Positions 4,679 through 32,565 are shown, numbered from the stretch's first letter. The stretch is 41,593 nt of DNA from Aestuariivirgaceae bacterium (GCA_028282065.1 JANQIR010000042.1:1-41593), one strand, 5' to 3'. Translations and numbers: made by a program. The notes: a model not told the origin generated them from the sequence alone.

Positions 4679-6913
4679 ATGGCGTTCAGCTTATCGCAGA
4701 TTTCAGGCCGGGTGACCAAAAAGGGCACGATCGAGCGTTTGATCGGTCTTGCGCTGCTGGTTCTGATATTGGGCCTGCGTTACATCGACCCGGCGCCGCT
4801 GCAACTGCTCAGGCTCAAGACGTTCGATATCTTTCAGCAGCTCAGCCCCAGGCAGGTTCCTCAGCCGGTGGTCATGATTATCGATATCGACGAAGAGAGC
4901 CTCAACGCCTATGGGCAATGGCCCTGGCCGCGCACCCGTATTGCCGAACTGATCAAGGCGGCGGCGGAAAATGGAGCAGCCGCAGTCGCGTTCGATATCA
5001 TCTTTGCCGAACATGACCGGATGTCACCGGGAAACATTGCGACAAACCTGCGCGGACTGGACAAAGCGCTCAAGGACCGGCTTAAGGCGCTGCCGTCGAA
5101 TGACGAACGCATGGCGGGAGCGATGCGCAATGCGCGCGTTATCCTCGGCCAATCGGGCTTGTCTCGCAAAGTCGAACAATGGCACGCGGCGGCCGAGAAA
5201 CAGTCGCAACTTGCCACGGTCGGGTCGGACCCTAGGCCGTTTTTATTCAAATATCCCGGTATCGTGCGCAATGTGCCCGAGCTGGAGGCGGCTGCCCTGG
5301 GTCGGGGCCTTCTGACCATCCAACCGGAGATCGACGGGGTGGTGCGCCGCGTCCCGATGATCATGGACGTGGACGACAAGGTCCTACCATCGTTGACCCT
5401 TGAGCTCTTGCGCGTGGCAACAGGGGCTGGAGCGGTGCTGGTGCGCACAAATGATGCGGGAATAGACTCCGTCGTCGTGCGTGGCGTGAGGGTGCCGACC
5501 GATGGCAATGGCCGGGTTTGGGTACATTTTTCGCACAGCGATCCGAAACGCTATGTTTCCGCGAAAGATCTGCTTTCCGGCACGGTCGCCGGCGGGTCGC
5601 TGCGCGGAAAGCTGGCTATTGTCGGGACATCGGCAACGGGTCTGTTCGACTTGAAATCGACGCCGGTCAATCCGGTCATGCCGGGTGTGGAGGTACATGC
5701 CCAGTTGCTGGAAACGATTTTGACCAACGCCCAGTTGAGCCGGCCGAACTACGCGGTTGGCGCGGAGCTGTTCCTGGCGATGTTCGTCGGCCTGCTGATC
5801 ATTTCCCTGGTGCCAATGCTGGGCGCGGTGACAACGCTGGTACTCGGTTTCTTCGTCTCGGCCGCCATTTCGGCAGGTGCATTCTATCTGTTCCAGAATA
5901 AGGGCGTGATGATCGACGTTGTCTATCCGCTACTGGCCAGCTTCGTGATCTTCTCCACCATGATTTTCCTGAACTATTTCCGCGAGGAGATGCAAAAGCG
6001 GCAGATACGCGGCGCATTCGGGCAATATCTCTCCCCTGCACTGGTCGAGCAGCTCGCCAAGGATCCAGACAAGCTGGTGCTCGGCGGGGAAACAAAGGAC
6101 ATGACGATCCTGTTTTCCGATGTGCGCGGTTTCACCACCATTTCGGAAACCTACAAGGACAACCCTCAAGGTCTTACGGCACTCATCAACCGGCTGCTCA
6201 CGCCGATGTCGGAGGTTGTGGCGAACCGCAACGGAACCATCGACAAGTACATGGGCGATTGCATCATGGCGTTCTGGAACGCGCCTCTGGATGACGGCGA
6301 TCACGCCAAGAATGCCTGCGCCGCCGCCCTTGGGATGCAGGTGGCCGTGGAAAAGCTGAACGAGCAGCGTAAGGCGGAGGCGGAGGAAATGGGAGAGGCG
6401 TTCCTGCCCATATCGGTCGGCGTCGGGATCAATACAGGCGATTGTGTCGTCGGCAACATGGGCTCCGACCTGAGATTCGACTATACCGTCCTTGGCGATG
6501 CCGTAAATCTCGCCTCCAGACTTGAAGGCCAGACCAAGGGCTATGGGGCGGATGTCATCATCGGGGCGCGGACTGCGGAACTGGCGGGATCGGACTTTGC
6601 GGTCCTTCCCATCGACAAGATCCGCGTGAAAGGCAAGGCGGAACCAGAAGACGTTTTCGCGCTTATCGGAGCACGGGAGATTCGCAGCGATGATGAATTC
6701 GGCCAACTCGCCGGGAAGCATGGTGAAATGATCTCCGCCTACCGGAACCGCAAGTGGCGCATGGCGCACAACGCGCTGAAGGCATGCCGGGAACATGCTG
6801 AGAAATTCGCGCTCAGCGGTGTTTATGACGTCTACGCGGCGCGCATCCGAGCGTTTCAGAAAACGCCACCACCGAAGGACTGGGATGGCGTGTATGACGC
6901 GCTCAGCAAGTAA
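4679..6913 (+). CDS. CHASE2-domain membrane adenylate cyclase (class III)
   Basis: The protein has 744 residues. A first membrane helix (about residues 20-38) leads into a periplasmic CHASE2 sensor (about 40-345; motifs DIDEESLNAYGQWPWPR and GAAAVAFDIIF). Three more helices follow (about 358-434) and then a cytoplasmic class III cyclase domain (about 470-655). Metal-binding aspartates are D481 (FSDVRGF) and D527 (KYMGDCIMAFW). The segment DYTVLGDAVNLASR has Thr at the adenine-selecting position and retains the catalytic Asn and Arg, so the domain looks active and of the IIIb type. It should convert ATP to cAMP in response to an extracytoplasmic signal that is not known. It is monocistronic as far as can be seen, and converges with the ABC-2 permease. 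Confidence 0.92.
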   Translation: MAFSLSQISGRVTKKGTIERLIGLALLVLILGLRYIDPAPLQLLRLKTFDIFQQLSPRQVPQPVVMIIDIDEESLNAYGQWPWPRTRIAELIKAAAENGAAAVAFDIIFAEHDRMSPGNIATNLRGLDKALKDRLKALPSNDERMAGAMRNARVILGQSGLSRKVEQWHAAAEKQSQLATVGSDPRPFLFKYPGIVRNVPELEAAALGRGLLTIQPEIDGVVRRVPMIMDVDDKVLPSLTLELLRVATGAGAVLVRTNDAGIDSVVVRGVRVPTDGNGRVWVHFSHSDPKRYVSAKDLLSGTVAGGSLRGKLAIVGTSATGLFDLKSTPVNPVMPGVEVHAQLLETILTNAQLSRPNYAVGAELFLAMFVGLLIISLVPMLGAVTTLVLGFFVSAAISAGAFYLFQNKGVMIDVVYPLLASFVIFSTMIFLNYFREEMQKRQIRGAFGQYLSPALVEQLAKDPDKLVLGGETKDMTILFSDVRGFTTISETYKDNPQGLTALINRLLTPMSEVVANRNGTIDKYMGDCIMAFWNAPLDDGDHAKNACAAALGMQVAVEKLNEQRKAEAEEMGEAFLPISVGVGINTGDCVVGNMGSDLRFDYTVLGDAVNLASRLEGQTKGYGADVIIGARTAELAGSDFAVLPIDKIRVKGKAEPEDVFALIGAREIRSDDEFGQLAGKHGEMISAYRNRKWRMAHNALKACREHAEKFALSGVYDVYAARIRAFQKTPPPKDWDGVYDALSK

Positions 6914-11267: not shown

Positions 11268-11277
11268 GGCACCGGCC

Positions 11278-12440: not shown

Positions 12441-12905
12441 TCAGGATGCCTGCTTGCGCAGCTCGTTACGGGCTTCCGACAATTCAGCCGTCGTTATGGA
12501 AAGCCGGTTGGCCAGTTCCCGCATGACTTCAATGCCCATTTCCGGAAACTCACGGATCAAACGCAGGAAGTGCTCTTTGTCGATCTTCAGCGTTTCCATC
12601 CTCGTGACAGCCTTGATCGTCGCCGTACGGGGCACATCGCAAAGGATTGCAATTTCGCCAATGAAGGCATTTTCACCGAGCTTGGCTACGGGTATCTCAC
12701 CTTCGGGCGTGTTTACCAGCACATCTGCATCGCCGCTAATCACCACATAGGCGGCATCGCCCTGATCGCCCTGTTTGAACAGAACCTGGTCTGCCTGGAA
12801 GGACATCCGCTCGGACGTAAATGCCAGCAGCTTAAGCTTGCCCGGATCTATCTGTGCAAACAACGGTACCCGCCGCAGCAGGTCGACTTCATCCTTTAAT
12901 CCCAT
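12441..12905 (-). CDS. Stand-alone cyclic-nucleotide-binding domain protein
   Basis: This 154-residue protein is a single cNMP-binding beta-roll with no DNA-binding domain or channel. The phosphate-binding cassette reads FIGEIAILCDVPRTATI, with the ribose-contacting Glu (E84) and phosphate-contacting Arg (R93) both present, so cAMP or cGMP binding is expected. A C-terminal helical tail (residues about 118-154) could bind a partner. It follows the degenerate ABC-transporter gene after 44 bases on the same strand and is probably co-transcribed. This suggests it makes that membrane protein respond to cyclic nucleotide, but no direct evidence exists in the sequence. Confidence 0.9.
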   Translation of the reverse strand: MGLKDEVDLLRRVPLFAQIDPGKLKLLAFTSERMSFQADQVLFKQGDQGDAAYVVISGDADVLVNTPEGEIPVAKLGENAFIGEIAILCDVPRTATIKAVTRMETLKIDKEHFLRLIREFPEMGIEVMRELANRLSITTAELSEARNELRKQAS

Positions 12906-12949: not shown

Positions 12950-15682
12950 CTATGCCACCAAGGCGGCATATTCTCCCTTTTGCGCCAACAGTTCGGAAGG
13001 TTCGCCTTCCTCGACCATGGCGCCATCCTTCATGACGACCACCCGCTCAAACTCGCTGGCAAAAGCGGCATTCGTCAAGGCCCAGACAACACCGTATGGC
13101 GGGTTGGCGTCCGTGCCCTCGCTGTCTTTCAATACCCTTTGAATAATGGCCATCTGACCCGCCCGATCCAGGCTCGAAAGAGCCCGATTGATCAGCAGGA
13201 CGTCAGGCCGCTTCAGCAATACGCGCGCCATCAAGACCTTTTGACGCTGGCTTTGTGCCAAGCGTTTACCGCTGGTTCCCACATTGAAATCGAGCCCGAC
13301 GTCGAACACATCATCGATGAGTTCATGCTTTTCCAGAACATCCAACCCCAGCTTCAGGATGGTTTCCGCACCACCGGCAACGCCGTAGGCGATCCGGCCG
13401 AAGAGGATATTGTCCTGGATGGACGACGCCCGGTTATAAGCTTCGGGATCATAGAACTCAATCGCGCCGGCAAGTTCTTGCGGCAGCTTTTGCCGCAGCG
13501 CCTGGCGGGCCGTTACGATACGGGCCATCATCGATTCATCCAGCAACCCCAGACGGTGACGCGGCTCGACATAAACGAACGGCAGGCGAAGAACCATGTC
13601 GCGATCGGCATCCGACACATCGACTACGCTTTGGTGCTGAATACGTGCGAGAACGGCCTGATACTCCGGTATTTGCTCGGCCGACATGAAACTCAGCTGC
13701 TCAAAGAACGGATGATCCGGAGGCAGATCGGCAAACAGCTCAATGGCGGTGTCGGCGATTTCGCGCCCCATCTCGAACAGGTCCGTGTCCAATCCCTCGC
13801 TTTGGAGAATCTTGCGGATATAGTCGTGGCTGCTCAAATATCCGTCCGTGAAAGCCTCGCCCACGGGTGTGCCAAACAGAAGATTTTCGCCGATGGTCGC
13901 CTGCTGGTTATAGGCGTCGGGGTCGAACTGTTCGACAAGGCCCTTGTAGGCGTCATCTTCCAGGATCTGCCTCAGTGCGCTGCGTGCCGCCAGAAGACCA
14001 GCGGCCAGTTCGGGCCGGTTGTCGGGATCGATCACCCCACGAAGGCCGAGGCCAAGCATGTCTTCGTCGAGATCCACGATCTTCAGGACGCGAAGCACCT
14101 GGTCCAGCAGGTCCTCGGGGCCGGAAGCGCCGGCAGCCTCGTAGTCGATCCAGTCGGCGCCGATATCGAGTGTCGTATTGCCGGAATTCCTGGCCTCGGA
14201 AATCTCCCAGGCGCGATGTTTCGCAGCGGCGCCGTCGTATGTCGCCTCGCGCAGCGGCGCACGCTTCAAGATGTACAGGATGTTATCGCGCACGGATCCC
14301 TGAAACAAAGATGCATCGGTCGGTACATATCCGATCCGCCGCCCAGTGATCGCTTCAGGAAGTTCGTCCAGATCCTCGCCCTGCAGGGTTATCCGTCCGG
14401 AACCGGGCGGCAACAGCCGGGCAAGCGCTTCACACAGATATTCCGCACCACTGTTCAGCCCGCCGACAACCGCAACCTTCCTGTCGAGATTGAGCTCCAT
14501 CGACAGGCGCTCCAGCAACCTCGCGCCGGAATCGTCGTTGACCGTCAGATTGGAGATCTTGAACTGGCCTTTCAGCCGATCCGGCCGATCGGTCACGACG
14601 GGCTGCAGTTGTGACTCCATCATGTTGTCGACCGTGAACTGGTCAATGACCTGGGAGTACTTCACCTGAACGTCGAGGCGCTGCTGGTCCCAGTCGATCA
14701 GCTCCTTGATCGGCGACGGCAAGTCCTTGTAAGCAGCGATGACGGCAACGAGCTGGCCAATGTCGAGCCGTCCGGTCAGGGCAAAATAACCTCCGACCGA
14801 ATAGAACAGAAACGGCGTCATCTGCGCCAGCAGGTTGTTAAGGAATTTGACGAAGAACTTGCGCTGATAGATCTCGTAGCGGATGGCAAAGATCTTCCCC
14901 AGCCGTGAGCTGACATCGGCACGCTCGAAATTCGACGTGTCGTTCACATGCACGCCGCCGATCGCATCCACAATCTCCCCGACACGGCCGGACAGGGCCC
15001 GTGTCGTCAACTGCCGTTCCCGGCCCAGCTCGATCAGCCGGCGCCGCAATCTCGGAATGAGGATGACCTGGATGCCGATGATCCCCGCAGCCATGCCGCC
15101 GAGCCAGACGTTCTGCACCAGAATAAAGCCCATGGCCGTCGCCGCCTGCCCGCCCAAAAACACAGGGGTGACAAAAGCATCGCCAATGAAGCCTCCCAAC
15201 GGCTCGACTTCGTCTTTCACCATGGTTGCGACTTCGGACGGCTTTACGCGCTTGAACTGCACCATGGGAAAACGCAGGACCCGGTCAACGAGTTCGTAGC
15301 GCAACCGGCGCAGCATGCGCTCGCCGAGCCGGCCCTTAAACGTGTTGATGTAGAATTTGAAGAGCCCGTTGATGCAGACCAGAAAAAGGAAGGTCAAGCT
15401 CAAGCCAAGCAGCATCTGGAACCTGTCCAGATCGAACCCTTCAAACAACACCAAAGTCCCGTCGGTATTCATCCATTCGGGAACGGAAAACTCCATGCGC
15501 AAAAATGGATCTCGAACGCTTTCATCCTCAAATCCCCGGCCCTGTATGGGGCCATTGACGATGCGTTTCGGCAGGTCGAGCGCCAAAAAGTAAGTCGGCA
15601 TGGAGATCAGCGCGACAAACAGAATCCACACCTGATGGGATCGCGTGTGTTTCCAGATATATCGGAAAAGATTGGGATCCAT
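12950..15682 (-). CDS. ABC-exporter-like membrane protein with a catalytically degenerate, internally duplicated nucleotide-binding domain
   Basis: The protein has 910 residues (ATG 15682; an in-frame TTG extension to 15754 is less likely). Residues about 1-345 are a type I exporter transmembrane domain. The NBD-like part (about 375-910) keeps its fold signatures but loses all catalytic motifs. Walker A is GGLNSGAE (407-414; Lys to Ala413, Ser/Thr to Glu414), the Q-loop Gln is Thr455, the signature is LAQSQRQ (808-814), Walker B Asp-Glu is Asn832-Arg833, and the H-loop His is Asn871. The D-loop SSLD remains. Between Q-loop and signature lies an insert of about 330 residues containing two copies of a segment ending N-[IL]-LFG, which itself echoes DNILY at 466-470. 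ATP hydrolysis is therefore unlikely. Linked to upstream glycosyltransferases and a downstream cNMP-binding protein. Confidence 0.88.
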   Translation of the reverse strand: MDPNLFRYIWKHTRSHQVWILFVALISMPTYFLALDLPKRIVNGPIQGRGFEDESVRDPFLRMEFSVPEWMNTDGTLVLFEGFDLDRFQMLLGLSLTFLFLVCINGLFKFYINTFKGRLGERMLRRLRYELVDRVLRFPMVQFKRVKPSEVATMVKDEVEPLGGFIGDAFVTPVFLGGQAATAMGFILVQNVWLGGMAAGIIGIQVILIPRLRRRLIELGRERQLTTRALSGRVGEIVDAIGGVHVNDTSNFERADVSSRLGKIFAIRYEIYQRKFFVKFLNNLLAQMTPFLFYSVGGYFALTGRLDIGQLVAVIAAYKDLPSPIKELIDWDQQRLDVQVKYSQVIDQFTVDNMMESQLQPVVTDRPDRLKGQFKISNLTVNDDSGARLLERLSMELNLDRKVAVVGGLNSGAEYLCEALARLLPPGSGRITLQGEDLDELPEAITGRRIGYVPTDASLFQGSVRDNILYILKRAPLREATYDGAAAKHRAWEISEARNSGNTTLDIGADWIDYEAAGASGPEDLLDQVLRVLKIVDLDEDMLGLGLRGVIDPDNRPELAAGLLAARSALRQILEDDAYKGLVEQFDPDAYNQQATIGENLLFGTPVGEAFTDGYLSSHDYIRKILQSEGLDTDLFEMGREIADTAIELFADLPPDHPFFEQLSFMSAEQIPEYQAVLARIQHQSVVDVSDADRDMVLRLPFVYVEPRHRLGLLDESMMARIVTARQALRQKLPQELAGAIEFYDPEAYNRASSIQDNILFGRIAYGVAGGAETILKLGLDVLEKHELIDDVFDVGLDFNVGTSGKRLAQSQRQKVLMARVLLKRPDVLLINRALSSLDRAGQMAIIQRVLKDSEGTDANPPYGVVWALTNAAFASEFERVVVMKDGAMVEEGEPSELLAQKGEYAALVA
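13397..13501 (-). repeat. Internal repeat copy 2 in the degenerate ABC protein
   Basis: Residues 728-762 run from ALRQKL through YDPEAYN to DNILFG, and form the second copy of the unit at residues 569-604. This copy leads on into the degenerate signature region at 802-814. Confidence 0.8.
13871..13978 (-). repeat. Internal repeat copy 1 in the degenerate ABC protein
   Basis: Residues 569-604 run from ALRQIL through FDPDAYN to ENLLFG. They match residues 728-762 in the pattern ALRQ-L...[FY]DP[DE]AYN...I-x-[DE]-N-[IL]-LFG. Both resemble the segment that follows the Q-loop of a normal ABC domain. Confidence 0.8.
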
Positions 15683-15871: not shown

Positions 15872-16990
15872 TCACAGAGCCGACAGCAAACGAGCGGTTT
15901 GCGTGGCGCCGTCCAGTTTGACCTTCCGCATTGGCCCCGGAACCGGTAGAGCGAACCGCTGCTCGATTTCCTGCGCCAGGCGTTGGGCGGTCAAACCGTC
16001 CTGCTGCAGCACCGAGACCCGGCCCGGCCCGGCCAGAAGCCTGGCGCGGCATGTCTGTTCGCTTTCTCCGTCATCTGCGAAGGGAACCAGGACCGACCGG
16101 CATCCGGCGCGCAGGACGTCGGCCACCGTATTGTAGCCGGCTTGCGAAACCGACAGACCGGCATGGTGCAGCAGTGCGCGGAAGTCCTTGCGATGCCTTT
16201 CAAGCCTGGCACCTGACGGTACGAGCCGGCCAAGTTTCTGGAATTCTGCTTCCGGTAAATTCGGACCCGCAATAAGGCACCAGGTACGTTCACCGTCCAT
16301 CAGGCCGGCTGTCCGGCATGCCGTCTCCAGAAGTTTCAATCCCGCAACGCCACCACCTGCCGAAACGACAATGTCTGCCGGTGGTCCCTGCAACTCGCCC
16401 GGTGGCGCAGAAACGATGCCGGTGTAGTGAACCAGATCCGCTATCTCGGATGCCAGCGGAAACGTCTCATCCAGCCGCACCATCAAGGGGTCACCATGAA
16501 CCAGTACGGCGGCGAAGTGCTGCCTGACAGTGCGCACTGTCTCGGCATCGCGTTCAGGTGAACGTGCCTGCAAAATGTCACGTACCGAGCAAACGATTTT
16601 GCAATCCTTCAACTTGCCCGCTACGTCAAGTAGTGGGTGCAGCTCAAAGCGCATCTGCCTGCGTCCGAACGGAAAAGCCTCGATCAAGACAATGTCCGGC
16701 TTCAACCGGCCGAATACCTGCAAAAGTTCAGTGCATCTCGCCTGCTTCCAGGCCGCATCCACCCGCTGACCGTCGGCGCTGACGAGATCGGAAAACCCAC
16801 CATCACCCGCGCGAAGCGGCGGCAATTGCACGGCCGGCACGTCAGGGCCCGGGAAACCATCAACCGGCATCCCTCCGGTTACCATGGTCAGTTCAAGGCC
16901 TTCTGCGATGGCCGCTTGCGCGATCGCGCTAGCACGGGCCAGATGCCCGATACCCAGCAGATGCTGAACGTAGAACAGAACCTTTTTCAA
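15872..16990 (-). CDS. COG4671-type predicted glycosyltransferase (GT-B, MurG-like C-domain)
   Basis: The protein has 372 residues and opens with KKVLFYVQHLLGIGHLARAS, the hallmark of the COG4671 predicted glycosyltransferases. The C-terminal half has VSAGGGVAGLKLLE and LSVSQAGYNTVADVL, a GT-B nucleotide-sugar-binding pattern. The start is TTG 16990, overlapping the stop of the upstream gene (TTGA); the strong family N-terminus supports this unusual start. It is the third gene of a glycosyltransferase operon. The acceptor and sugar are unknown. A 189-base gap separates it from the degenerate ABC gene on the same strand. Confidence 0.85.
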   Translation of the reverse strand: MKKVLFYVQHLLGIGHLARASAIAQAAIAEGLELTMVTGGMPVDGFPGPDVPAVQLPPLRAGDGGFSDLVSADGQRVDAAWKQARCTELLQVFGRLKPDIVLIEAFPFGRRQMRFELHPLLDVAGKLKDCKIVCSVRDILQARSPERDAETVRTVRQHFAAVLVHGDPLMVRLDETFPLASEIADLVHYTGIVSAPPGELQGPPADIVVSAGGGVAGLKLLETACRTAGLMDGERTWCLIAGPNLPEAEFQKLGRLVPSGARLERHRKDFRALLHHAGLSVSQAGYNTVADVLRAGCRSVLVPFADDGESEQTCRARLLAGPGRVSVLQQDGLTAQRLAQEIEQRFALPVPGPMRKVKLDGATQTARLLSAL

Positions 16991-18249
16991 CTTGCACCAC
17001 CGGCCTTACCAGACCGAAGCGTGGCCCGGAACAGGTCGTTCAAAAACCCAACGCTTGTGCACATGTCGAAATCACGGCGGACAATTTCCTGACCACGATT
17101 GCCCAATTCGGCCCTTCTTTTCGGATCGGTGATCATGTTCTGCAGGGCCTGCGCAAGGGCCTCGGGGTCCTCCGGCGGCACCAGCAGGCCATTTATACCG
17201 TCGCTGACGAGTTCCGGCACACCAGCCACCGTGGTCGACACGCAGGCCAGTCCCTGGCTCTGAGCCTCGACGATCACATTGGGCAAACCGTCACGATCGC
17301 CATCGCGCGCGATACGGCAGGGGAGCACAAACAGGTCCGACGAACGGTATTGCTCCAGCACGGCGCTTTGCGGCAATGGGCCCCGCCAGGTCAGCCGGTC
17401 CGCTACGCCGCGCTCTTCGGCACGCTCTTTCAGTCTTGTCACCAGTTCACCGGCACCTATGTGCGTCCAGTGCCAATTGAGATCTTCAGGCAGCAGCGCA
17501 AGTGCGTCTATCAAGAGGTCCAGGCCCTTTTTCTCCACTGCCCGGCACACGGTCACGAGCCTGACCGGTTCTGATTTGCCGTCGTTGCCAAGTGTGCCGA
17601 CCTTAGATTCCGGCGGACCAAAGCGCGAAAGATCCAGGCCATGATAGCTTAGATGAACCTGCGCCTGCGGACGGGCCAGAGACTTAAGCCTGTCGAAGCC
17701 GGCCTTGGTGCAGGTGACGACCCACTGCGCGGAAGACAGCTTGCCGGCGAGGTCTTCGCTGGTGGACGTCCAGATGTCCTTTGCATGTGCCGAACAGGTC
17801 CACGCCAATCCGGTCATGACACTGGCATAAAAGGTGACGGATGCAGGTGTGTGGATGAAATGGGCATGCAGATGCCGCACATCCGGTGGCAGCTCTGCTG
17901 CCAGCACCATGGCCTGGCCCCAGCGGCGCACCCGGTTGCGGGTCAAATCTCGGCGCAGGTCGGACAGGAAGGTTCGGAAGGCGGCCTTGTAGCCAGGCAG
18001 GCGCCGAACTTTCCGCCATGCCTTCAGCACACGCATTGGCTCGTCCGTCAGGTACTCCGGCAGGTAACTGACGGGAGCCCGGATTTCCTTGTGCACCTGG
18101 TGAACGTGCTCATCGGTCGGATGGCGCATGGAGTAGAGCATCAAGTCCAGCCCGAGCCTCTCCAGGCCCAGCAATTCCTGGGCAATGAAGGTTTCCGACA
18201 GGCGGGGGTAGCCCTTCAGGACAACGGCAATACGGCCAATATCAGTCAA
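16987..18249 (-). CDS. GT4-family glycosyltransferase
   Basis: The protein has 420 residues: GT-B fold, N-terminal KGYPRLSETFIAQELLGLE, then HLHAHFIHTPASV and a C-terminal donor domain with VCRAVEKKGLDLLIDAL and GLPNVIVEAQSQGLACVST (the E-x7-E-like region). Such enzymes transfer sugars from nucleotide donors in exopolysaccharide and glycolipid assembly. The start is a TTG at 18249; no in-frame ATG lies between the upstream stop codon and it. It lies 27 bases after the first COG4671 gene and overlaps the third gene by 4 bases, so the three are one operon. Confidence 0.88.
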   Translation of the reverse strand: MTDIGRIAVVLKGYPRLSETFIAQELLGLERLGLDLMLYSMRHPTDEHVHQVHKEIRAPVSYLPEYLTDEPMRVLKAWRKVRRLPGYKAAFRTFLSDLRRDLTRNRVRRWGQAMVLAAELPPDVRHLHAHFIHTPASVTFYASVMTGLAWTCSAHAKDIWTSTSEDLAGKLSSAQWVVTCTKAGFDRLKSLARPQAQVHLSYHGLDLSRFGPPESKVGTLGNDGKSEPVRLVTVCRAVEKKGLDLLIDALALLPEDLNWHWTHIGAGELVTRLKERAEERGVADRLTWRGPLPQSAVLEQYRSSDLFVLPCRIARDGDRDGLPNVIVEAQSQGLACVSTTVAGVPELVSDGINGLLVPPEDPEALAQALQNMITDPKRRAELGNRGQEIVRRDFDMCTSVGFLNDLFRATLRSGKAGGAS

Positions 18250-18276: not shown

Positions 18277-19476
18277 TCAGACCACGGCCAACCGGAGCCT
18301 GTCTCGGCGGGCGATCAGCTCCTCTGTAAGATCGGCGATCACGTCCAGGCCCCCCATCATCTGCGCGGCGCCCGATACCGATGGTGCCGGACGGCGCACC
18401 AGAGCTTTCAAGGCCGAGGCCATGGCCAACGGGTCGACGGCATCGTTAGGGTGCAGCATATCCAGCAGTCCAAGCTCCTGGGCGCGCCTGGCCCGCACAT
18501 ATTGCTCCTGACGCGGTTTGACCCGAGGAACAATCAAGGCCGGCTTGTCAAAGGACAGTATTTCGCAGAACGTGTTGTAGCCGCACATGCCGACCACACC
18601 GGCTGAATCGGTAATCAGTTTCTCAATCCTGTTGTGAAATTCGATAATCTCGACCCGCTTGGTTTGCCGGGCGCGCTCCGTGAGCGTCTCACGTTCTTCC
18701 GCCGGCATGAAAGGCCCCAGCGTCATGACCGCGTTTACGTCTATGCCGGGGTCAGCCTCATAGGCGGCCAGGACCTGGCTTAGCAAACCTGCCCCGTCGC
18801 CCCCGCCACCGGCCGTCACCAGGATATACTTGCCGGAGGTCAAAGGCGCACTGGCGTAACTCGGCGGCACGGTACGATCCAAAAACCCGGTGAACGTCAT
18901 GCGTTCGCGCAAACGCTCGGGCACATCGAGCCCGGTCAGCGGATCCCAGAAGCTCTTTGGCCCGTAAACCCAGATATCATCGTACAGCTCGTCAATCTTG
19001 CCAGCCATATCCGTACGGGACCACTCCTTGCGCAGCAATTCCGGAGAGTCCATGACATCGCGCAGTCCCAGGACCAACGTGCAGCGCTGAGACTTCAAAT
19101 AACGGAGCGTTTCCTCAAGTTCGCCGCGCAGCCCCAATGGCTCCTTGTCGACAATGAAGATGTCGGGATCAAAGGACTTGGTGGTGTGGTGGATCATCGA
19201 CATGCGCATATCCAGCGTTTCCTGGATATCGATATGCTGATCGATCGAGGTATATTCGCCGTTGTGCAGCTTGATCACGCTTGGGATCTTCACAAAATCA
19301 ACCCTGGCGCGAAAATCGAAGGCACCGGCGATCGGCGAGCCCGAAATGATCAGGACATGCACACCTTTGTAGTGTTCAACAAGGGAATGGGCGATCGTCC
19401 GGCAGCGGCGAAGATGGCCCAGGCCGAACGTGTCGTGGCTGTACATTAGGATTCGGACGTGTTCGAGCCGCTTCAT
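18277..19476 (-). CDS. COG4671-type predicted glycosyltransferase
   Basis: The protein has 399 residues from ATG 19476 (MKRLEHVRILMYSHD, then FGLGHLRRCRTIAHSL). A longer in-frame reading to 19575 lacks family sequence. The C-terminal half has VTAGGGGDGAGLLSQVL and GVVGMCGYNTFCEIL, paralogous to the enzyme at 15872-16990. Two related COG4671 enzymes flanking a GT4 suggest successive sugar additions to one acceptor. It is first in the operon; the 226 bases before it contain no recognised gene. Confidence 0.85.
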   Translation of the reverse strand: MKRLEHVRILMYSHDTFGLGHLRRCRTIAHSLVEHYKGVHVLIISGSPIAGAFDFRARVDFVKIPSVIKLHNGEYTSIDQHIDIQETLDMRMSMIHHTTKSFDPDIFIVDKEPLGLRGELEETLRYLKSQRCTLVLGLRDVMDSPELLRKEWSRTDMAGKIDELYDDIWVYGPKSFWDPLTGLDVPERLRERMTFTGFLDRTVPPSYASAPLTSGKYILVTAGGGGDGAGLLSQVLAAYEADPGIDVNAVMTLGPFMPAEERETLTERARQTKRVEIIEFHNRIEKLITDSAGVVGMCGYNTFCEILSFDKPALIVPRVKPRQEQYVRARRAQELGLLDMLHPNDAVDPLAMASALKALVRRPAPSVSGAAQMMGGLDVIADLTEELIARRDRLRLAVV

Positions 19477-19702
19477 GACCGGTTTCCCTGACCTAACGGA
19501 GCCTCTTTGACGCTGAGTACACCAGGTTTGCGCGCTGTTGAGAGCGGTGCCCGGCGCTCGGTTCACCAGGAGCAAATCCCACTACTGCAATATTCGGGAA
19601 AATCCCGCCCTGCCTGCCAACTGAACTATGGCACACAGACGGTTGCCGCAAAATGGCCGTAACGCGTGTTTTACCTTTTTTGCTACCCACACCAAACTCT
19701 CA

Positions 19703-20887
19703 TTACTTATACGGATCGGCGGCATCGCGCAAACCGTCGCCGAGAAAATTATACGCCAGTATGACCAGGATGACCGGCACCACGGGCAGCATCAGCCAGG
19801 GATACAACACCACCGCATTGATGTTTTGCGCCTCGGTCAGAAGAACCCCCCAGCTGGTGATCGGCGGTCTCAACCCCAGCCCCAGGAAGCTCAGGGCCGT
19901 TTCACCAAGAATCATCACCGGGATTGAAATCGTCGCCGTGGCAATGAGATGGCTCATAAACCCGGGCACCAGGTGCCGGAAAATAACCCTGGACGTTCCA
20001 GCTCCCATCAGTTGCGCCGCCAGAACATAATCTTCCTCGCGCAATGCCAGAAGTTTCGATCGCACCGCTCTGGCCAACCCGGTCCAGTCGATCAGGCCGA
20101 GTATGATGGTAATCGCAAAATAAACCACAATAGGCGACCATGTGACCGGCATGATGGCGGCGAGTGCCAGCCACAACGGAATACTGGGCAGCGATTGCAG
20201 CACCTCGATGATGCGCTGAACGATCATGTCGGTCAGGCCACCATAGTAGCCCGCGATACCGCCGATCACGATCCCCAGAGAAAAACTGATGGCGATACCG
20301 ATCAAGCCGATCGTCAGCGAAATACGCGCACCATAAATCATTCGCGAGAAGATATCCCGGCCCAGGCGATCAGTCCCCAACAGGAAGAACGGACCTTTCT
20401 TCGGCGGACAGACGATGTGGAAGCTGCCTTCCCAAATACCCCAGAACTTGTACGTGTCGCCGGAGCAGAAGAACCTCAACGGCAGAACCTTTCGCTCGTC
20501 GCGCTTGTAGATCGGTTTCAGGGTCTCCAGGTCCCGGCTGGCCTTGATACCGTAGACGAAGGGCCCGACAAACTTACCGTCGTGGAACAGGTGCACACCC
20601 TGTGGCGGGGCAAACTGATAGCGGCTGTTGCGCGTGTGAAGATTATACGGCGCGAGGATCTCGCTGATGAGAATCGAACCGTACAAAACCAGCAGGAATA
20701 CTCCCGACCAAACGGCGATGCGGTGACGCTTGAACTTCCACCACATGAGCTTCCATTGGGACGCGAGATAGACCTTTTCCTGCTCGGGCGTCAGCTGTTC
20801 GATTGAACGCGGATCAAACGCAGCACTCGAGATATAGTGGTGCATTGGTTCGCCGGAAGGCGGCAATGGAGATTTACCGGTGGTCAT
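19703..20887 (-). CDS. Peptide/oligosaccharide ABC transporter permease (DppC/YejE-like)
   Basis: The protein has 394 residues. The N-terminal cytoplasmic stretch and first helix (VWSGVFLLVLYGSILIS) are followed by a periplasmic segment of about 130 residues, which is much longer than in DppC. Then comes LLGTDRLGRDIFSRMIYGAR and the permease core with the EAA-type loop ALREEDYVLAAQLMGAG. The start ATGA overlaps the stop of the DppB-like gene. It is last in a four-gene uptake operon. The long loop may contact the large binding protein. Confidence 0.9.
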   Translation of the reverse strand: MTTGKSPLPPSGEPMHHYISSAAFDPRSIEQLTPEQEKVYLASQWKLMWWKFKRHRIAVWSGVFLLVLYGSILISEILAPYNLHTRNSRYQFAPPQGVHLFHDGKFVGPFVYGIKASRDLETLKPIYKRDERKVLPLRFFCSGDTYKFWGIWEGSFHIVCPPKKGPFFLLGTDRLGRDIFSRMIYGARISLTIGLIGIAISFSLGIVIGGIAGYYGGLTDMIVQRIIEVLQSLPSIPLWLALAAIMPVTWSPIVVYFAITIILGLIDWTGLARAVRSKLLALREEDYVLAAQLMGAGTSRVIFRHLVPGFMSHLIATATISIPVMILGETALSFLGLGLRPPITSWGVLLTEAQNINAVVLYPWLMLPVVPVILVILAYNFLGDGLRDAADPYK

Positions 20888-21882
20888 TTGGTTCTCCCGC
20901 CGGCAAGGCGAATGCGCGGATCAAGCATGGCAAGCGCAATATCGGAAATCAGAACACCGATCACCGTGAGCGTGGCCAGCACCATAAGGAACGATCCTGC
21001 CAGGTACATGTCCTGGCTTTGCAACGCAGAGATCAGCAACGGACCGGTGGTCTCCAGCGACAAGACGATTGCGACGATCTCAGCACCGGAAATGATGGCT
21101 GGCAGGATGCTGCCGATATCGGAAATGAAGAAATTCAGCGCCATGCGCAGCGGATACTTCACCAGCGCACGGAACGGGTGAAGCCCCTTGGCCTTGGCCG
21201 TTGTAACATATTGCTTTTGCAACTCGTCGAGCAGGTTCGCGCGCAGCCGCCGGATCATGCCCGCCGTTCCGGCCGTCCCGACGATAATGACCGGTATCCA
21301 CAAATGGTTCAGGATCGAAATGGCCTTATCCCAACTCATCGGCGCATTGACATATTCCGGGTCCATCAATCCGCCGATCGACAGGTCAAACCAGACATTC
21401 GCCAGATATAGAAATATCAGGGCGAGCATGAAATTCGGTGTCGCCAGGCCGAGAAGGCCCAGAAACGTCAGTCCATAGTCGCCCCAGCTGTACTGGTGCG
21501 TGGCGGAGTAGATGCCGATGGGAAAAGCGATCAACCAGGTAAAGATGATCGTCGTGAAGGAGACCAGGATGGTCAGCCACATCCGGTCGCCGACAACATC
21601 CGACACGGGTAACTGGTATTCAAAGGAATAGCCGAAATCACCGTGCAGCATGCCCCAGACCCAATGGAAGTACCGCTCCACGGGCGGTTTGTCGAAACCG
21701 TATTCCTTGCGCAACTCCTCGATCTTCTGCAGATCGACCGTTTCGCCCTGAGCCTGGAGTTCGGCAATATAGCTCTCGAAATAGTCGCCCGGCGGCAGCT
21801 CGATAATGGCGAACACCAGCGCCGAAATAATCAGCAACGTCGGTATCATCACGAGAAATCTATGGATGATATAGCCGATCAA
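20884..21882 (-). CDS. Peptide/oligosaccharide ABC transporter permease (DppB/YejB-like)
   Basis: The protein has 332 residues with a standard DppB layout: N-terminal helix (YIIHRFLVMIPTLLIISALV), a periplasmic loop (residues about 30-95), five further helices, and the EAA loop around YVTTAKAKGLHPFRALVKYP. The start is TTG 21882, supported by a perfect AAGGAG 7 bases upstream; the first in-frame ATG would remove part of the first helix. It follows the binding-protein gene by 39 bases and overlaps the DppC-like gene. Confidence 0.92.
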   Translation of the reverse strand: MIGYIIHRFLVMIPTLLIISALVFAIIELPPGDYFESYIAELQAQGETVDLQKIEELRKEYGFDKPPVERYFHWVWGMLHGDFGYSFEYQLPVSDVVGDRMWLTILVSFTTIIFTWLIAFPIGIYSATHQYSWGDYGLTFLGLLGLATPNFMLALIFLYLANVWFDLSIGGLMDPEYVNAPMSWDKAISILNHLWIPVIIVGTAGTAGMIRRLRANLLDELQKQYVTTAKAKGLHPFRALVKYPLRMALNFFISDIGSILPAIISGAEIVAIVLSLETTGPLLISALQSQDMYLAGSFLMVLATLTVIGVLISDIALAMLDPRIRLAGGRTK

Positions 21883-21921
21883 GTGTTCGCTCCTTCCGCC
21901 TACGCCTCGATCCCTGCCGGC

Positions 21922-23823
21922 TTATTGGCCGGAAAACCAGAATGCGTCCATGTTGTAGATGCCGAAATAGGATCCCGGCGAAAAACTCCACACGCCCTCT
22001 TCGGGAATGTTCTCCAGTGCGGCCGCACTGACAACCGGCTGGCGGGTGCTGTTGACCGTGCCGATCGAGAAGACCTGATCGGTGTAAAGCGACAACATCT
22101 TGTGCCAGATTTCTGCACGTTCGGCCGTGGACCGGGCCGAGCGCCAGTCCTGCGCAAACTTGGCCAGCTGTTTGGCTTCTTCAATATCCGCCGGCTCGCC
22201 CTTGGCGCCGCCGGTTTCGTAATATTGCCCCCATCGCGGCCATTGCAGTTGCGCGTCGGAGCTTGGAGAAACTTCCCACGGGTTCATGTCCGCAGTGGGA
22301 AGTGCGTTGTCCAGACCGGCCCAAACCGACATCACCGTCTGACCGGAGAACACCCGGCGGCGCAGGACTTCGCGCTGCGAGGCGCGCACGAACACCTTGA
22401 TGCCAATCTTGCTCAGGTGATCGGCAATCAGTTCCAATACATCGGTTTCTTCAGTGCTCTCGCCAGCCGTTTCAATGATCAGGTCGGCCGGATTACCGTT
22501 GGGAAGCAGCCTGGTGCCTTCGCCATTGCGCTTATCCAGGCCGATTTCGTCGAGCAGTTTGTTTGCCTGTTCGGGATCATGCGCGATCCAGGCATTGGCA
22601 TATTCTTCCCGGAACAGCGGACTTTCCGGCAACACCGTGTCGGCACTTTCCCGCCCAAGGCCGTAGAACACGCTTTGGTTCAGGTCTTCACGATCAATGC
22701 CCAATGAGATCGCCCGGCGGAAGCGAACATCACGCACCAGCTTTCTCCAGACCGGGTCTTCGACATTCAAATTCGGCAGAAGCGCGAGCTTGGAACCAAA
22801 TCCGTACCGCCACAGCCGGACCTTGATCTTGCCGCGCTTTTCAGCCTCTTTCAGGAAGGTATAGTTGTCAAACCGAATGTAGCGCGCCTGGAGGTCGCTG
22901 TCGCCGGCGCCTGTCTTGGCCGGCACCAGCGACGTCGATCCCATGCTCATGATGATCTTATCGATATACGGCAGCTGCCGACCATTTTCGTCGACACGGT
23001 GAAAGTATGGGTTGCGCTCGAAAACGAACTGCTCCGATGGCGGATTGATCGTGTTATGCCAGGGATCGAGCGTCGGCAAATCCGGATTTTCGGGCCGGTA
23101 CTGACGGCCCTTCTTGATATGCAGTCCGCGCCATTTGCGCGCCCTTTCTTTCTCGACCATTTCCTCCAGCTTGGCCTTATCCTGATACTTGGCATGAAAC
23201 TGCTTCATGTAGTGGGCAGGCAGCGCAAGGAACAACGGCCGCGGCGCTGCCAAGGCGGGAAGGAAGTCGGGATTGGGTTCCTCCCAGGTGAACCGCACCG
23301 TCACTTCATCAATAACTTCGAACTTCGGCGGTTTGCCCTTGACAAGAAGCTGGCGCGGGGGCCCGGTACGCGACAATTCCTCGTTGTTGAAGACATCTTC
23401 CCAGACATACCGGATGTCCGCAGTCGTAAAAGGCTTGCCATCAGACCATTTGTGACCCTTTCGCAGCTTGAATGTGAAGATCCGGCCTTCCTTGACGTCA
23501 AACGATTCCAGAATATCGGGGACGAGTTCAAAGTCTTTGTTGAAACCCACGAGGCGCGCATAACCGTAGACCGTCATCATACGGACGTCCTTTTGCTTGC
23601 CCATGAGCATGCGGATCGTGCCACCGTGTTTGCCCGGCTTGCGGTCCAAAGCTCCCATGTTGATGACGCGCGGCGTTTCCGGCAGCCGTTCAGCCACAGG
23701 AGGCAGCTTACCGGCCTTGACATCGGCTCCAAGCGACGGCGTTTCCTGAAGAGACCCCGCATACGCCGGTACCAGCGCACATATACAGGCGAACAGAACG
23801 GTTGCTAGCAGCCGGTGGATCAT
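21922..23823 (-). CDS. Family 5 extracellular solute-binding protein (YejA-like, large)
   Basis: The protein has 633 residues. A Sec signal peptide ([20 protein letters not shown], cleavage after AYA near residue 22) is followed by a family 5 binding fold: LVPDILESFDVKEGRIFTFK, LRKGHKWSDGKPFTTADI, then RRAISLGIDREDLNQSVF and GLDNALPTADMNPWEVS. It is longer than DppA (about 535 residues) and close to YejA-type proteins, which bind peptides; some relatives in this size class take oligosaccharides. The ligand is unknown. The ATG overlaps the stop of the fused ATPase gene. Confidence 0.9.
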   Translation of the reverse strand: MIHRLLATVLFACICALVPAYAGSLQETPSLGADVKAGKLPPVAERLPETPRVINMGALDRKPGKHGGTIRMLMGKQKDVRMMTVYGYARLVGFNKDFELVPDILESFDVKEGRIFTFKLRKGHKWSDGKPFTTADIRYVWEDVFNNEELSRTGPPRQLLVKGKPPKFEVIDEVTVRFTWEEPNPDFLPALAAPRPLFLALPAHYMKQFHAKYQDKAKLEEMVEKERARKWRGLHIKKGRQYRPENPDLPTLDPWHNTINPPSEQFVFERNPYFHRVDENGRQLPYIDKIIMSMGSTSLVPAKTGAGDSDLQARYIRFDNYTFLKEAEKRGKIKVRLWRYGFGSKLALLPNLNVEDPVWRKLVRDVRFRRAISLGIDREDLNQSVFYGLGRESADTVLPESPLFREEYANAWIAHDPEQANKLLDEIGLDKRNGEGTRLLPNGNPADLIIETAGESTEETDVLELIADHLSKIGIKVFVRASQREVLRRRVFSGQTVMSVWAGLDNALPTADMNPWEVSPSSDAQLQWPRWGQYYETGGAKGEPADIEEAKQLAKFAQDWRSARSTAERAEIWHKMLSLYTDQVFSIGTVNSTRQPVVSAAALENIPEEGVWSFSPGSYFGIYNMDAFWFSGQ

Positions 23824-25727
23824 TGCGGTCTAAGCTCCCTAACATCAGCTTGCTCTCTGGCCAGGACGAAGTGGCCTTCGGCAATTTCAAAATGCTTCAA
23901 TTCGCCGTCCTCGCCTTCGGGACGGAACTGCGGCGCCCAATCTTCAATATCAGAGGCACCTTCCAAACGAAGCGCGCCAAGATCCAGCGGGCGGTCCAAA
24001 TCAGGATAAGGCACCGCCGACAACAGTGAACGGGTGTATGAGTGTATCGGCTGGCGAAACAGCACTTCGCGCGGTGCAGCTTCCACGATGCGTCCGCGGC
24101 ACATAACCGCGATCCGGTCGGCCATGTAATCGACGACAGCCAGATTATGGGAAATGAACAGATATGTCAGGCCCAACTGCGACTGCAGGTCCTTCAGCAG
24201 ATTGAGCACCTGGGCTTGCACCGAAACATCGAGGGCTGAAACCGGTTCGTCGCAAATCAGCAGTTCCGGTTTCAGGGCCAAAGCACGGGCGATTCCGATC
24301 CTCTGGCGCTGGCCTCCGGAGAACGAATGCGGATAGCGGCTCAAGAATCGGGGATCGAGACCAACCACGCGCATCAGATCCTTCACCGTTGCAAGCCGCG
24401 AAGCGTCGTCTCCAACATTGTGGATCTCCAGCGGCTCACGCAAAACGTTGGAGACAGTCATCCTTGGACTGAGCGAAGAGAACGGGTCCTGGAAAACCAT
24501 CTGTATGCGCGTCCGGAACCGCTTGAGCGCGTCGCCGTGCAACTCGTTGATATCCGTGCGGCCGGTCTTGCCGTTGAATATGATGTCGCCAGAATCGGCG
24601 GTAACGGCGCGCATGATCAGTTTCGACACGGTGGTCTTGCCGCAACCGCTTTCACCGACCAGGCCAAAACACTCCCCGCGCTTGATCTCAAAGCTCACAT
24701 TGTCCACGGCGCGCACGACGTTGTCCGCCGGACCAAACGAAAACAATCCTCCCTTGCGGGTCTGGAAAGTCTTGGTCAGCGACTTGACGCTCAAGATAGG
24801 CTCTTCAGAGGCAACCTCGCCGGACGCGGCGTCGGCGCCAAGCAATGCAACGGCGTCCACCTTGACATCACGCAACGAGGTGAGCCTTTCGCCTTCGCGC
24901 ATATCGAAATGCGGCACGGCGTTCAAAAGCGCTTTGAGATAGGGATGCTGCGGCCTGGAGAAGATCTCCTTCACAGGGCCTGCCTCCATGATCTCGCCGT
25001 GATAGATCACCACAACTTCGTCAGCCATGTTGGCGACAACGCCAAGATCATGGGTGATGAGCAGGACCGCCATGCCGAGCTTTTCCTGCAGATCCTTCAG
25101 CAGCTTGAGGATCTGTGCCTGGATGGTGACGTCGAGCGCCGTGGTCGGCTCGTCGGCGATCAGCAGTGCGGGGCGACAGATCAGCGCCATCGAAATCATG
25201 GCGCGCTGGCGCAATCCTCCGGACAGCTCAAAGGGGTACATGTCATAGGCGCGGACCGGGTCTGGAAATCCGACCAGGTCCAGCATCTCCTCGGTCCTGG
25301 AACGCCGTTCGGATTTTGGGACATTTTGATGGAGAACCAGCGCTTCCTCGATCTGATCGCCGATCGTGTGCAGCGGCGACAAGGATGTCATGGGCTCCTG
25401 AAAGATCATCGCGATCCGGCCGCCGCGCAGAGTGCGCATCTTGCCGCCATCCGGCAGCAGGCCGGCGATATCAATGACCTGGCCCGGAGACATGGGGTCG
25501 AAGAACTTGATCGAGCCGCCGGATATTCTGCCGACCTTGGGCAATATGCCCATAATCGCCTGGGCGCAGACGGACTTTCCCGATCCCGACTCGCCGACAA
25601 GCGCCATCACGCTTCCCGGACGGATACGAAAACTCACGCCTTTGACAACTTCCAGCGCACCCGATTGCAGGGTGAACTCTATTTTGAGGTCCTCAACGCG
25701 CAGCAAATCTTGTGCTGGCGAACTCAT
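23820..25727 (-). CDS. Fused double ATP-binding subunit of the uptake ABC transporter (YejF/DppDF-like)
   Basis: The protein has 635 residues with two complete ABC domains. The first (about 5-260) has GESGSGKS, a signature [11 protein letters not shown] and Walker [13 protein letters not shown]. The second (about 305-570) has [25 protein letters not shown] and [12 protein letters not shown]. Both have oligopeptide-transporter C-terminal extensions. All catalytic motifs are intact, in contrast to the exporter-like protein at 12950-15682. It is first gene of the operon and starts 44 bases from an 18-base palindrome that may be its operator. Confidence 0.95.
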
Positions 25728-27862: not shown

Positions 27863-29224
27863 CTACCGGGCATGCAACACAACCAGTTCGAGATCCGAAT
27901 TCAGTGCGTCCAACCGGTCTTTCACAAATGTCACATCCTTGCGCGTCGGGTATCCCTGTGCGAGCGCGCGCCTCCAGGTTTGCGCATCGGTTACGGCACG
28001 TGAATTGAGGGTCTTGTTGTGCTTTTCAAGTTTGGCCGCAAGATTGACCGTCGATCCAATCGTGGTGAACTCCAACCGGTTTTCGCCCCCAAGCGCACCA
28101 AAGACTACAGGTCCGGACGCCACTGACATATTGACGTTTTCAGGTGCAATCCGGCGCACATCGCCCATTCGCGGCCATGTCTCGGTTTCCTCGATGATTT
28201 CGTCAATTGCCCGTAGCGCATCGGCAGCGAAGGTCTTGCTTGCCAAGACAGCGCCAAAACTCGCCATAATGCCGTCACCGAGGAATTTGTCGATGGTGCC
28301 GCCATTGCGCTGAATGATCGGGACAATTCGCTTTTCGTACGCCGTCAGCATCGAGACGACCCTGCGCGGTTCGAGCTTTGCGGACATGTCCGAAAACCCG
28401 CGGATGTCGACAAACACGATCGCAGCGTTGCGACGTATGCCCTCCCCCGACTTGACGGCGTGATCAGCAGAACGGATTGCGTCGGCCACTCCTGCGTCGA
28501 AGAAGCGCGAAAGATCCTGAGCCGCCGTGCCTTCGCTGACCGCCTGTACCAGCAACCCGTGCGCGCGGCGCAGGGCCAGCGCCAGAATCACAGTGACGAT
28601 GAGGATCGAGATGATCTTGTCGAACTCGGCGCCCAGCAGCACGGCGTTGCTGGTCATATACTCGATGTAATCACGTGTGATCATCGAGTTTGCCGGGTCG
28701 GAAAAAACGACATAGGCGGTCATCATCAGCCAGCCCAGCGCCGCCATGATACCGGTTGCTATGACGAAGCGCGCCTGAAAGCGCAGGGTTCTGAGTGCAA
28801 TGAAAATAAAGATATACAGGATGGTGGGCGCCTTCAGATAAAATGAAGGGGGTTGCCCGTACTGGATGTGGAAGCTCCAGATCAGGGTCATCAGCATCGA
28901 GATGTCGATGATGATGTTGATATAGATCGACCAGTTCGGCAGGCCCCGGCGCATGGCCCAGACAAGCCCGATCAGGTTCAGGACAAAATAGCCGGCCAGC
29001 GCATACGGCACCGGCGAGAAAGGCGTGCCGACGTCGGTCTTCGGAGAGACGAAGTACAACACCGCCCACACGCCCACGACCGAAAGTTGGATGAGTTTTA
29101 CGAGGATTTCTGCGGAATTTTCCCTGCGGCGGATAGCGGCAACCACGCGCGGCGGCATGTCATCACGCGAACCGCGCTTGAACGTTTCACGCAGAGCTTC
29201 GGAAAGTGCAGGTATTTGACTCAT
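27863..29224 (-). CDS. Membrane-anchored class III nucleotide cyclase with an Arg-to-Lys change at the active site
   Basis: The protein has 453 residues. About five or six membrane helices (residues about 40-225) are followed by a linker (RFFDAGVADAIR) and a class III cyclase domain (about 262-440). Metal aspartates are D273 (FVDIRGF) and D317 (FLGDGIMASFG). In EFTTIGSTVNLAAKLE the Thr at the base-selecting position and Asn394 are present, but the transition-state Arg is Lys398. I recall similar Lys-containing sequences in rhizobial cyclases, so it may still be active. It lies 23 bases after the metallo-hydrolase gene on the same strand, forming an operon, and converges with the deacetylase gene. 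Confidence 0.88.
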   Translation of the reverse strand: MSQIPALSEALRETFKRGSRDDMPPRVVAAIRRRENSAEILVKLIQLSVVGVWAVLYFVSPKTDVGTPFSPVPYALAGYFVLNLIGLVWAMRRGLPNWSIYINIIIDISMLMTLIWSFHIQYGQPPSFYLKAPTILYIFIFIALRTLRFQARFVIATGIMAALGWLMMTAYVVFSDPANSMITRDYIEYMTSNAVLLGAEFDKIISILIVTVILALALRRAHGLLVQAVSEGTAAQDLSRFFDAGVADAIRSADHAVKSGEGIRRNAAIVFVDIRGFSDMSAKLEPRRVVSMLTAYEKRIVPIIQRNGGTIDKFLGDGIMASFGAVLASKTFAADALRAIDEIIEETETWPRMGDVRRIAPENVNMSVASGPVVFGALGGENRLEFTTIGSTVNLAAKLEKHNKTLNSRAVTDAQTWRRALAQGYPTRKDVTFVKDRLDALNSDLELVVLHAR

Positions 29225-32500: not shown

Positions 32501-32565
32501 GTACGGATGACTATACGCAATTGGCCGTGCGGCGGACAATCACGCACATGTGCCGCGCGGCTGCG

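Follow-up and report, generated by a model that had tools for sequence, protein, structure and literature searches.

A class-wide family of ABC-exporter-like pseudo-ATPases paired with a cyclic-nucleotide-binding protein

The window, a stretch of 41,593 nucleotides from an Aestuariivirgaceae bacterium, encodes an ABC-exporter-like protein (pseudo-ABC) that retains the exporter fold despite the loss of its ATPase residues. The family to which it belongs is under purifying selection, is encoded almost always beside or fused to a cyclic-nucleotide-binding (cNMP) protein with a preserved ligand pocket, and often adjoins glycosyltransferase genes. The dead engine has been kept under strong selection and comes with a near-constant cNMP partner, so a signalling molecule, and not ATP, probably drives the pseudo-ABC as a gate or flippase in the membrane.

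Fold and nucleotide sites of the pseudo-ABC

The pseudo-ABC gene occupies 12950..15682 and encodes 909 amino acids plus a stop codon, with the ATG at 15682 and the stop at 12950. These coordinates agree with the initial annotation of the window, which had left out the strand (minus). The start was set by the N-terminus shared by the homologues, M-E/D-P-x-L-F-R-Y-I-W. The transmembrane domain (TMD, residues 1–340, 14663..15682, minus) is normal-looking, as proposed earlier, and matches Pfam ABC_membrane with E 3.9e-11, while the rest of the protein matches ABC_tran in two pieces (E 1.2e-11). The single chain thus combines an ABC_membrane TMD and an ABC nucleotide-binding domain (NBD) fold, the arrangement of a type IV ABC exporter. 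An AlphaFold2 model built from a 62-sequence alignment reached a pLDDT of 87.2 and a pTM of 0.81. When structures were superposed on this model with VIA-align, the complete NBD of S. mutans ComA fell on residues 368–910 with the insert described below skipped (239 of 239 residues, 1.8 Å, Z 30.6), and many half-exporters aligned over the full length, with Z of 28–30 to exporters and NBDs. That the complete ComA NBD superposes despite the lost motifs indicates that the NBD is structurally whole and chemically dead. An extracytoplasmic β-hairpin insertion is also predicted between TM1 and TM2 (residues 47–86, approximately 15425–15544, minus); it looks shorter in divergent relatives.

We scored nine catalytic positions, namely the Walker A Lys and Ser/Thr, the Q-loop Gln, the S-G-G of the signature, the Walker B Asp and Glu, and the H-loop His, and the window protein carries the canonical residue at none of them. 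Its degenerate Walker A, VVGGLNSGAEY (residues 405–415, 14438..14470, minus), reads GGLNSGAE in place of the GxxGxGK[S/T] of functional ATPases, with Ala413 and Glu414 at the Lys and Ser/Thr positions, and the Q-loop residue is Thr455. The C-terminal NBD half (residues 796–909, 12953..13297, minus) holds a signature that reads LAQSQRQ instead of LSGGQ, a Walker B (LLINR) with Asn832 and Arg833 in place of the Asp and the catalytic Glu, and an H-loop (WALTN), all degenerate. The initial annotation had read all of these residues correctly apart from the H-loop: the loss of the His stands, but alignment with relatives that keep it (IIWALHRANLA) places the substituted residue at Thr870 and not at Asn871. 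As a control, six other ABC-exporter-type ORFs read in the same genome carry the canonical GxxGxGK[S/T]; a seventh locus was set aside, its longest ORF being a different gene. Compared with type IV exporters of the MsbA/ABCB-like kind (TIGR02203, PF00664 plus PF00005), the pseudo-ABC shares the six-helix TMD followed by an NBD and the half-transporter architecture, but it lacks the Walker A Lys, the catalytic Glu, LSGGQ, the Q-loop Gln, and the H-loop His, and it adds an insert of approximately 315 residues and the fixed cNMP partner.

The insert (residues ~481–795, 13298..14242, minus) splits the NBD between the Q-loop and the signature. It is mostly helical and is predicted to fold alone (pLDDT 94 for residues 458–807). 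Profile-profile comparison with HHalign detected two copies of an internal repeat, at residues 556–641 (13760..14017, minus) and 715–798 (13289..13540, minus), which share 30% identity over 84 columns (probability 99%, E 1.2e-18). The two-copy insert described in the first reading of the window is therefore real, but the likeness of its units to the segment after the Q-loop turned out to be a shorter and weaker resemblance: both copies recall the stretch S-x-R-D-N-h-L-Y-G ... L..GL, with E between 1e-6 and 1e-9. Tandem duplication of part of the helical subdomain is the likeliest, if unproven, origin of the insert. The idea that the repeats copy the entire segment running from the Q-loop through the signature helix to Walker B found no support, since profile comparison of the C-terminal parts (T3 versus T1/T2) gave no significant similarity. 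The insert as a known separate domain was rejected, since structure and profile searches of the PDB gave no convincing relative: Foldseek of the 350-residue insert model returned no match at E <= 0.001, and comparing its profile with PDB sequences turned up a single match at chance level. VIA-align of the insert yielded Z of at most 4.5, and the 19 best rows were ABC NBD chains aligned mostly over repeat unit 2, a signal too weak to claim alone.

Spread, selection, and graded loss of motifs

Full-length relatives with 30–68% identity were found in 69 of 199 genomes of the order, and the insert profile matched 98 of the 289 genomes sampled in the class, approximately one third. The class is identified as the Alphaproteobacteria from the titles of those loci that carry an organism name. 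Across the phylum, 31 of 398 sampled genomes matched the insert profile and all 31 belong to the same class, which led us to reject occurrence of the family outside the Alphaproteobacteria; one metagenome-assembled genome titled Betaproteobacteria (L105) has a family member and may be misbinned. The pseudo-ABC is also present in 262 plasmid records, mostly from Rhizobium and Sinorhizobium and including S. meliloti pSymB. The longest open frame around any member has 1386 codons (L198:3347-7504), possibly through an extra fused domain or a long upstream read-through.

Selection was estimated on 70 Mesorhizobium-group orthologues, which are not the near kin of the window protein. The median dN/dS was 0.175 overall (Nei-Gojobori counts on 1065 pairs that are not independent of each other), and by domain 0.166 for the TMD, 0.239 and 0.211 for the NBD halves, and 0.153 for the insert, which is thus under selection as strong as the TMD. 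The loss of every motif in the window copy is what a decaying pseudogene or an assembly artefact could also produce. However, there are hundreds of full-length homologues, frames are open in nearly all members of this class-wide family, a clade of 38 members is entirely without the Walker A Lys and the H-loop His, dN/dS stays at 0.15–0.24 in every domain, and unrelated genomes have the same gene order. The pseudogene reading is refuted by these data and keeps next to no chance of being right, and the proposal of a conserved pseudo-ATPase made in the initial annotation is upheld.

Among 102 non-redundant members, none has LSGGQ (the S-G-G set is present in 0/102) and none has the full canonical set. 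The Walker A Lys is present in 30 of these members, the Walker A Ser/Thr in 16, the catalytic Glu in 29, and the H-loop His in 13. Lys, Glu, and His occur together in 8 of the 102, e.g., L160 and L177, the former with the motifs GTGGSGKEE, VLDEATTALD, and ALHR. In distant relatives, the Walker A Lys is accompanied by Asp and Glu or by Glu and His, and GSGKS is kept in two fused members. In the clade of the window protein (38 members, support 99), Lys and His were found in none, and Asp and Glu in one each. By parsimony, Lys changed 13 times and Glu 17 times on the tree, figures that are only indicative because the FastTree tree was built with the motif columns left in. Orthologues with an intact Walker A and B had been named at the outset as an observation that would speak against a pseudo-ATPase; the distant relatives go part of the way, but none reaches LSGGQ or the full set. 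Losses are thus graded and old, in agreement with a pseudo-ATPase status that we regard as well supported. Two divergent members with a fused cNMP domain and a canonical-looking GSGKS Walker A, L125 and L196, provide a useful near-ancestral comparison.

The alignments also bear on whether these proteins still bind nucleotide. The Walker A Gly residues are retained in 55–58 of 62 alignment rows, which makes nucleotide binding without hydrolysis possible; ATP may be bound even where canonical residues are missing. Since Lys and Glu are kept in deeper branches, part of the family may, judging from sequence, still use ATP. An alternative is that the pseudo-ABC is a nucleotide-binding exporter that hydrolyses slowly or not at all by an unconventional chemistry, in which an acidic residue replaces the Walker A Ser/Thr and Walker B reads Asn/Arg, and that the cNMP protein only tunes it. 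The kept Gly residues, the biased substitution of Ser/Thr by Glu/Asp (44 of 62 rows), and the members with Lys or with Lys, Glu, and His speak for this alternative. We nevertheless consider it unlikely, because the clade of the window protein is always without Lys, and substitutions in Walker B, the signature, and the H-loop look unconstrained.

Another alternative is that the pseudo-ABC is one half of a heterodimer whose other, catalytically competent half-exporter is encoded elsewhere. Its half-size architecture fits this, and exporters such as TM287/288 and TAP belong to a common asymmetric type in which one of the two sites is poor. The overall fold and the tolerance of degenerate motifs are shared by the pseudo-ABC with TM287/288, TmrAB, TAP, and BmrCD; these exporters retain one consensus site, whereas the window clade retains none. 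Such heterodimers usually keep some elements of each site intact, for instance the signature that faces the site of the partner, but here all are lost, and conserved-neighbour analysis detected no recurrent second (canonical) exporter beside the family. A heterodimer is therefore a very improbable explanation.

The cyclic-nucleotide-binding partner

The gene of the cNMP partner (12441..12905, minus; 154 aa; Pfam cNMP_binding E 9.7e-22) starts 44 bp downstream of the pseudo-ABC stop. The protein scores 77 bits against PF00027, with a gathering score of 27.5, and contains the cassette G-E-x(n)-P-R-[TS]-A; its phosphate-binding cassette is intact (IGEIAILCDVPRTATI). Pfam found the cNMP domain alone in the 154 residues and no DNA-binding domain. 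The partner has been annotated as a Crp/Fnr regulator in one S. meliloti record, although the C-terminal helix-turn-helix of Crp/Fnr transcription factors was not found in it.

In a set of 105 loci dereplicated at 75% identity, the partner is present in 98. Its gene immediately follows the pseudo-ABC in the same orientation in 84 of these loci; in the other 14, the partner is joined to the C-terminus of the pseudo-ABC, through two independent fusion events on the family tree. One of the seven loci without partner ends at a contig edge. The Arg and the Glu/Asp of the cassette, the residues that contact the cyclic phosphate, are kept in 97 and 96 of the 98 partners, respectively, and in the motif-less clade in 35 and 36 of 36. 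The chemistry has thus gone on one side of the pair, where the ATPase residues are lost, and has been preserved on the other. Plasmid records tell a similar story, with 262 carrying the pseudo-ABC and 245 the partner in nearly the same genera. Records of Ruegeria, Sulfitobacter, Tritonibacter, and Azospirillum are among the 262 and absent from the 245, and a Sulfitobacter record that we inspected holds a long pseudo-ABC without a separate partner gene. Altogether, the fixed partnership of the pseudo-ABC with the cNMP protein is well supported. It is the most telling feature of the locus, and the initial annotation was silent on it.

The association of an ABC exporter with a cNMP-binding domain protein is known from NHLM/NHLP bacteriocin exporters and cyc_nuc_ocin proteins (TIGR03796, TIGR03797, TIGR03896). 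Those exporters are canonical ATPases, some with a peptidase domain, unlike the pseudo-ABC, and both proteins of the window match these models far below the cut-offs (pseudo-ABC to TIGR03796, 137.4 bits against 853; partner to TIGR03896, 44.9 bits against 161). Pycsar anti-phage systems also combine a cNMP-binding domain with a membrane or TIR effector and a cyclase. In PADLOC, the partner matched cNMP-TIR effector models through its cNMP domain only and the pseudo-ABC had no match, which gives no support to a defence island; in contrast to Pycsar, the pseudo-ABC loci are stable, syntenic, and linked to glycosyltransferases.

Gene neighbourhood and possible function

Upstream of the pseudo-ABC, on the same strand, lie a GT28-C-like glycosyltransferase that is a conserved neighbour (15872..16990, minus), a group 1/GT4-like glycosyltransferase (16987..18249, minus), a second GT28-C-like glycosyltransferase (18277..19575, minus), and an Opp/Dpp-type transporter of two permeases, a solute-binding protein, and a double-NBD ATPase (19703..25727, minus). 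The resulting order (double-NBD ATPase, solute-binding protein, two permeases, three glycosyltransferases, pseudo-ABC, cNMP protein) recurs on plasmids of two symbionts, R. leguminosarum p2 and S. meliloti pSymB, for the latter as far as its incomplete annotation lists the genes. At other loci, the glycosyltransferases are often divergent and still adjoin the pseudo-ABC. Enough flank was available for 65 loci, of which 41 have a GT28-C-like gene within 4 kb and 44 have a group 1 glycosyltransferase at this distance. These neighbours, together with the lipid A flippase MsbA (TIGR02203) as the best NCBIfam match of the pseudo-ABC (151.9 bits, far below the cut-off of 602), give a sequence-based hint of the cargo.

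Nucleotide cyclases are a further recurrent neighbour. A class III cyclase lies within 3 kb in 25 of 73 loci, against approximately 2% expected by chance from the cyclase density of 22 genomes in which the family is present (313 cyclases in 108 Mb). In the window, three class III cyclases of different architecture lie within 28 kb: one with a CHASE2 domain that is a possible source of the signal (4679..6913, plus), one with the cyclase domain alone (27863..29224, minus), and a ferredoxin-domain cyclase of CyaC-like architecture (30776..32539, minus). The genome has 16 cyclase matches in 4 Mb. In several relatives, the gene that immediately follows the partner encodes a ferredoxin-domain cyclase. 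An MBL-fold hydrolase lies within 3 kb in 23 of 73 loci. Such hydrolases by the partner gene, e.g., at L041:9314-10213, match a cyclic-nucleotide phosphodiesterase model below threshold (44 bits, cut-off 400).

Taken together, we give about an even chance to the pseudo-ABC being an ABC-exporter-derived conduit or flippase for a glycoconjugate, gated by the cyclic-nucleotide sensor instead of ATP hydrolysis. As a half-size protein it should dimerise, with both nucleotide sites dead, and its NBDs would act as mechanical levers and not as motors. The cNMP subunit would dock on the NBD or the insert, and its ligand could be cAMP or another cyclic nucleotide made by the nearby class III cyclases. 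Ligand binding would then alter the contact between the NBDs so that the transmembrane pathway opens or closes, presumably independently of ATP. The neighbouring glycosyltransferases would make the likely cargo, a lipid-linked saccharide or a surface glycoconjugate, which would be flipped, scrambled, or released downhill and would need a gradient. Against such a gate, the cyclase and hydrolase neighbours are each found in only about a third of the loci, and co-location is no proof of docking.

CFTR, a gated channel, and SUR, a channel regulator, are both ABC proteins. Like the pseudo-ABC as we picture it, they use an ABC exporter body with degenerate nucleotide sites as a gate or regulator under second-messenger control. 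They are full-length proteins with one working site and nucleotide-dependent NBD dimerisation, whereas the pseudo-ABC is bacterial, has a cNMP subunit, and would have both homodimer sites dead. The broader proposal that a class-wide exporter family gave up ATP and became a bacterial CFTR/SUR analogue, in which a second messenger takes the place of ATP at the NBDs and the cNMP subunit gates the flipping or release of a surface glycoconjugate, is one that we hold tentatively and at somewhat less than even odds. A further alternative, in line with the regulatory or scaffold role suggested in the initial annotation, is a non-transporting regulator: a membrane receptor that would sense the cyclic nucleotide and, as SUR does with its potassium channel, pass this state on, either to the glycosyltransferases or to some other complex in the membrane. 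Dead sites, a dedicated sensor, and glycosyltransferase neighbours fit this as well as they fit a gate. However, the TMD is by far the best conserved domain, with 25% of its columns at least 90% conserved against 5–7% elsewhere. This pattern points to selection on a pathway or on a contact in the membrane, and a conserved effector gene common to all loci was not found. We therefore regard a pure regulator as rather unlikely and the gated conduit as the preferred reading.

We found no description of this family in the open-access literature, the part that our search covered. Precedents exist for its parts (degenerate sites in asymmetric exporters, CFTR and SUR as gate or regulator, cNMP proteins by NHLM exporters), and their combination appears to be new. 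ABC exporters are defined by ATP hydrolysis; if the gated conduit is correct, a ligand other than ATP can take over the powering or gating of the ABC scaffold. The label "ABC transporter ATP-binding protein" that databases give to family members is likely misleading. The family keeps intermediate states, with Lys, Glu, and His kept, partly lost, or all lost, so that the change from a pump into a gate can be followed stage by stage, and its presence in S. meliloti and R. leguminosarum makes deletion and testing feasible.

Further genes were noted around the family. In many Mesorhizobium-group loci, a DUF3095 protein whose N-terminal part looks cyclase-like by eye is conserved downstream (L077:12221-13420). 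A divergent conserved gene without Pfam match lies just upstream of the pseudo-ABC in L039 (4884-5633, minus) and other loci of that group, and the S. meliloti gene at the corresponding place is annotated as a SAM-dependent methyltransferase. Two Rhizobium loci (L102 and L103) share a neighbourhood without the glycosyltransferase trio, in which genes of clusters 9, 42, and 14 are found instead. In the window itself, an amine-oxidase-fold oxidoreductase, an acyltransferase, and a GT2 glycosyltransferase follow each other in a row (8962-12411, plus), an arrangement that recalls C30 carotenoid (staphyloxanthin-type) clusters.
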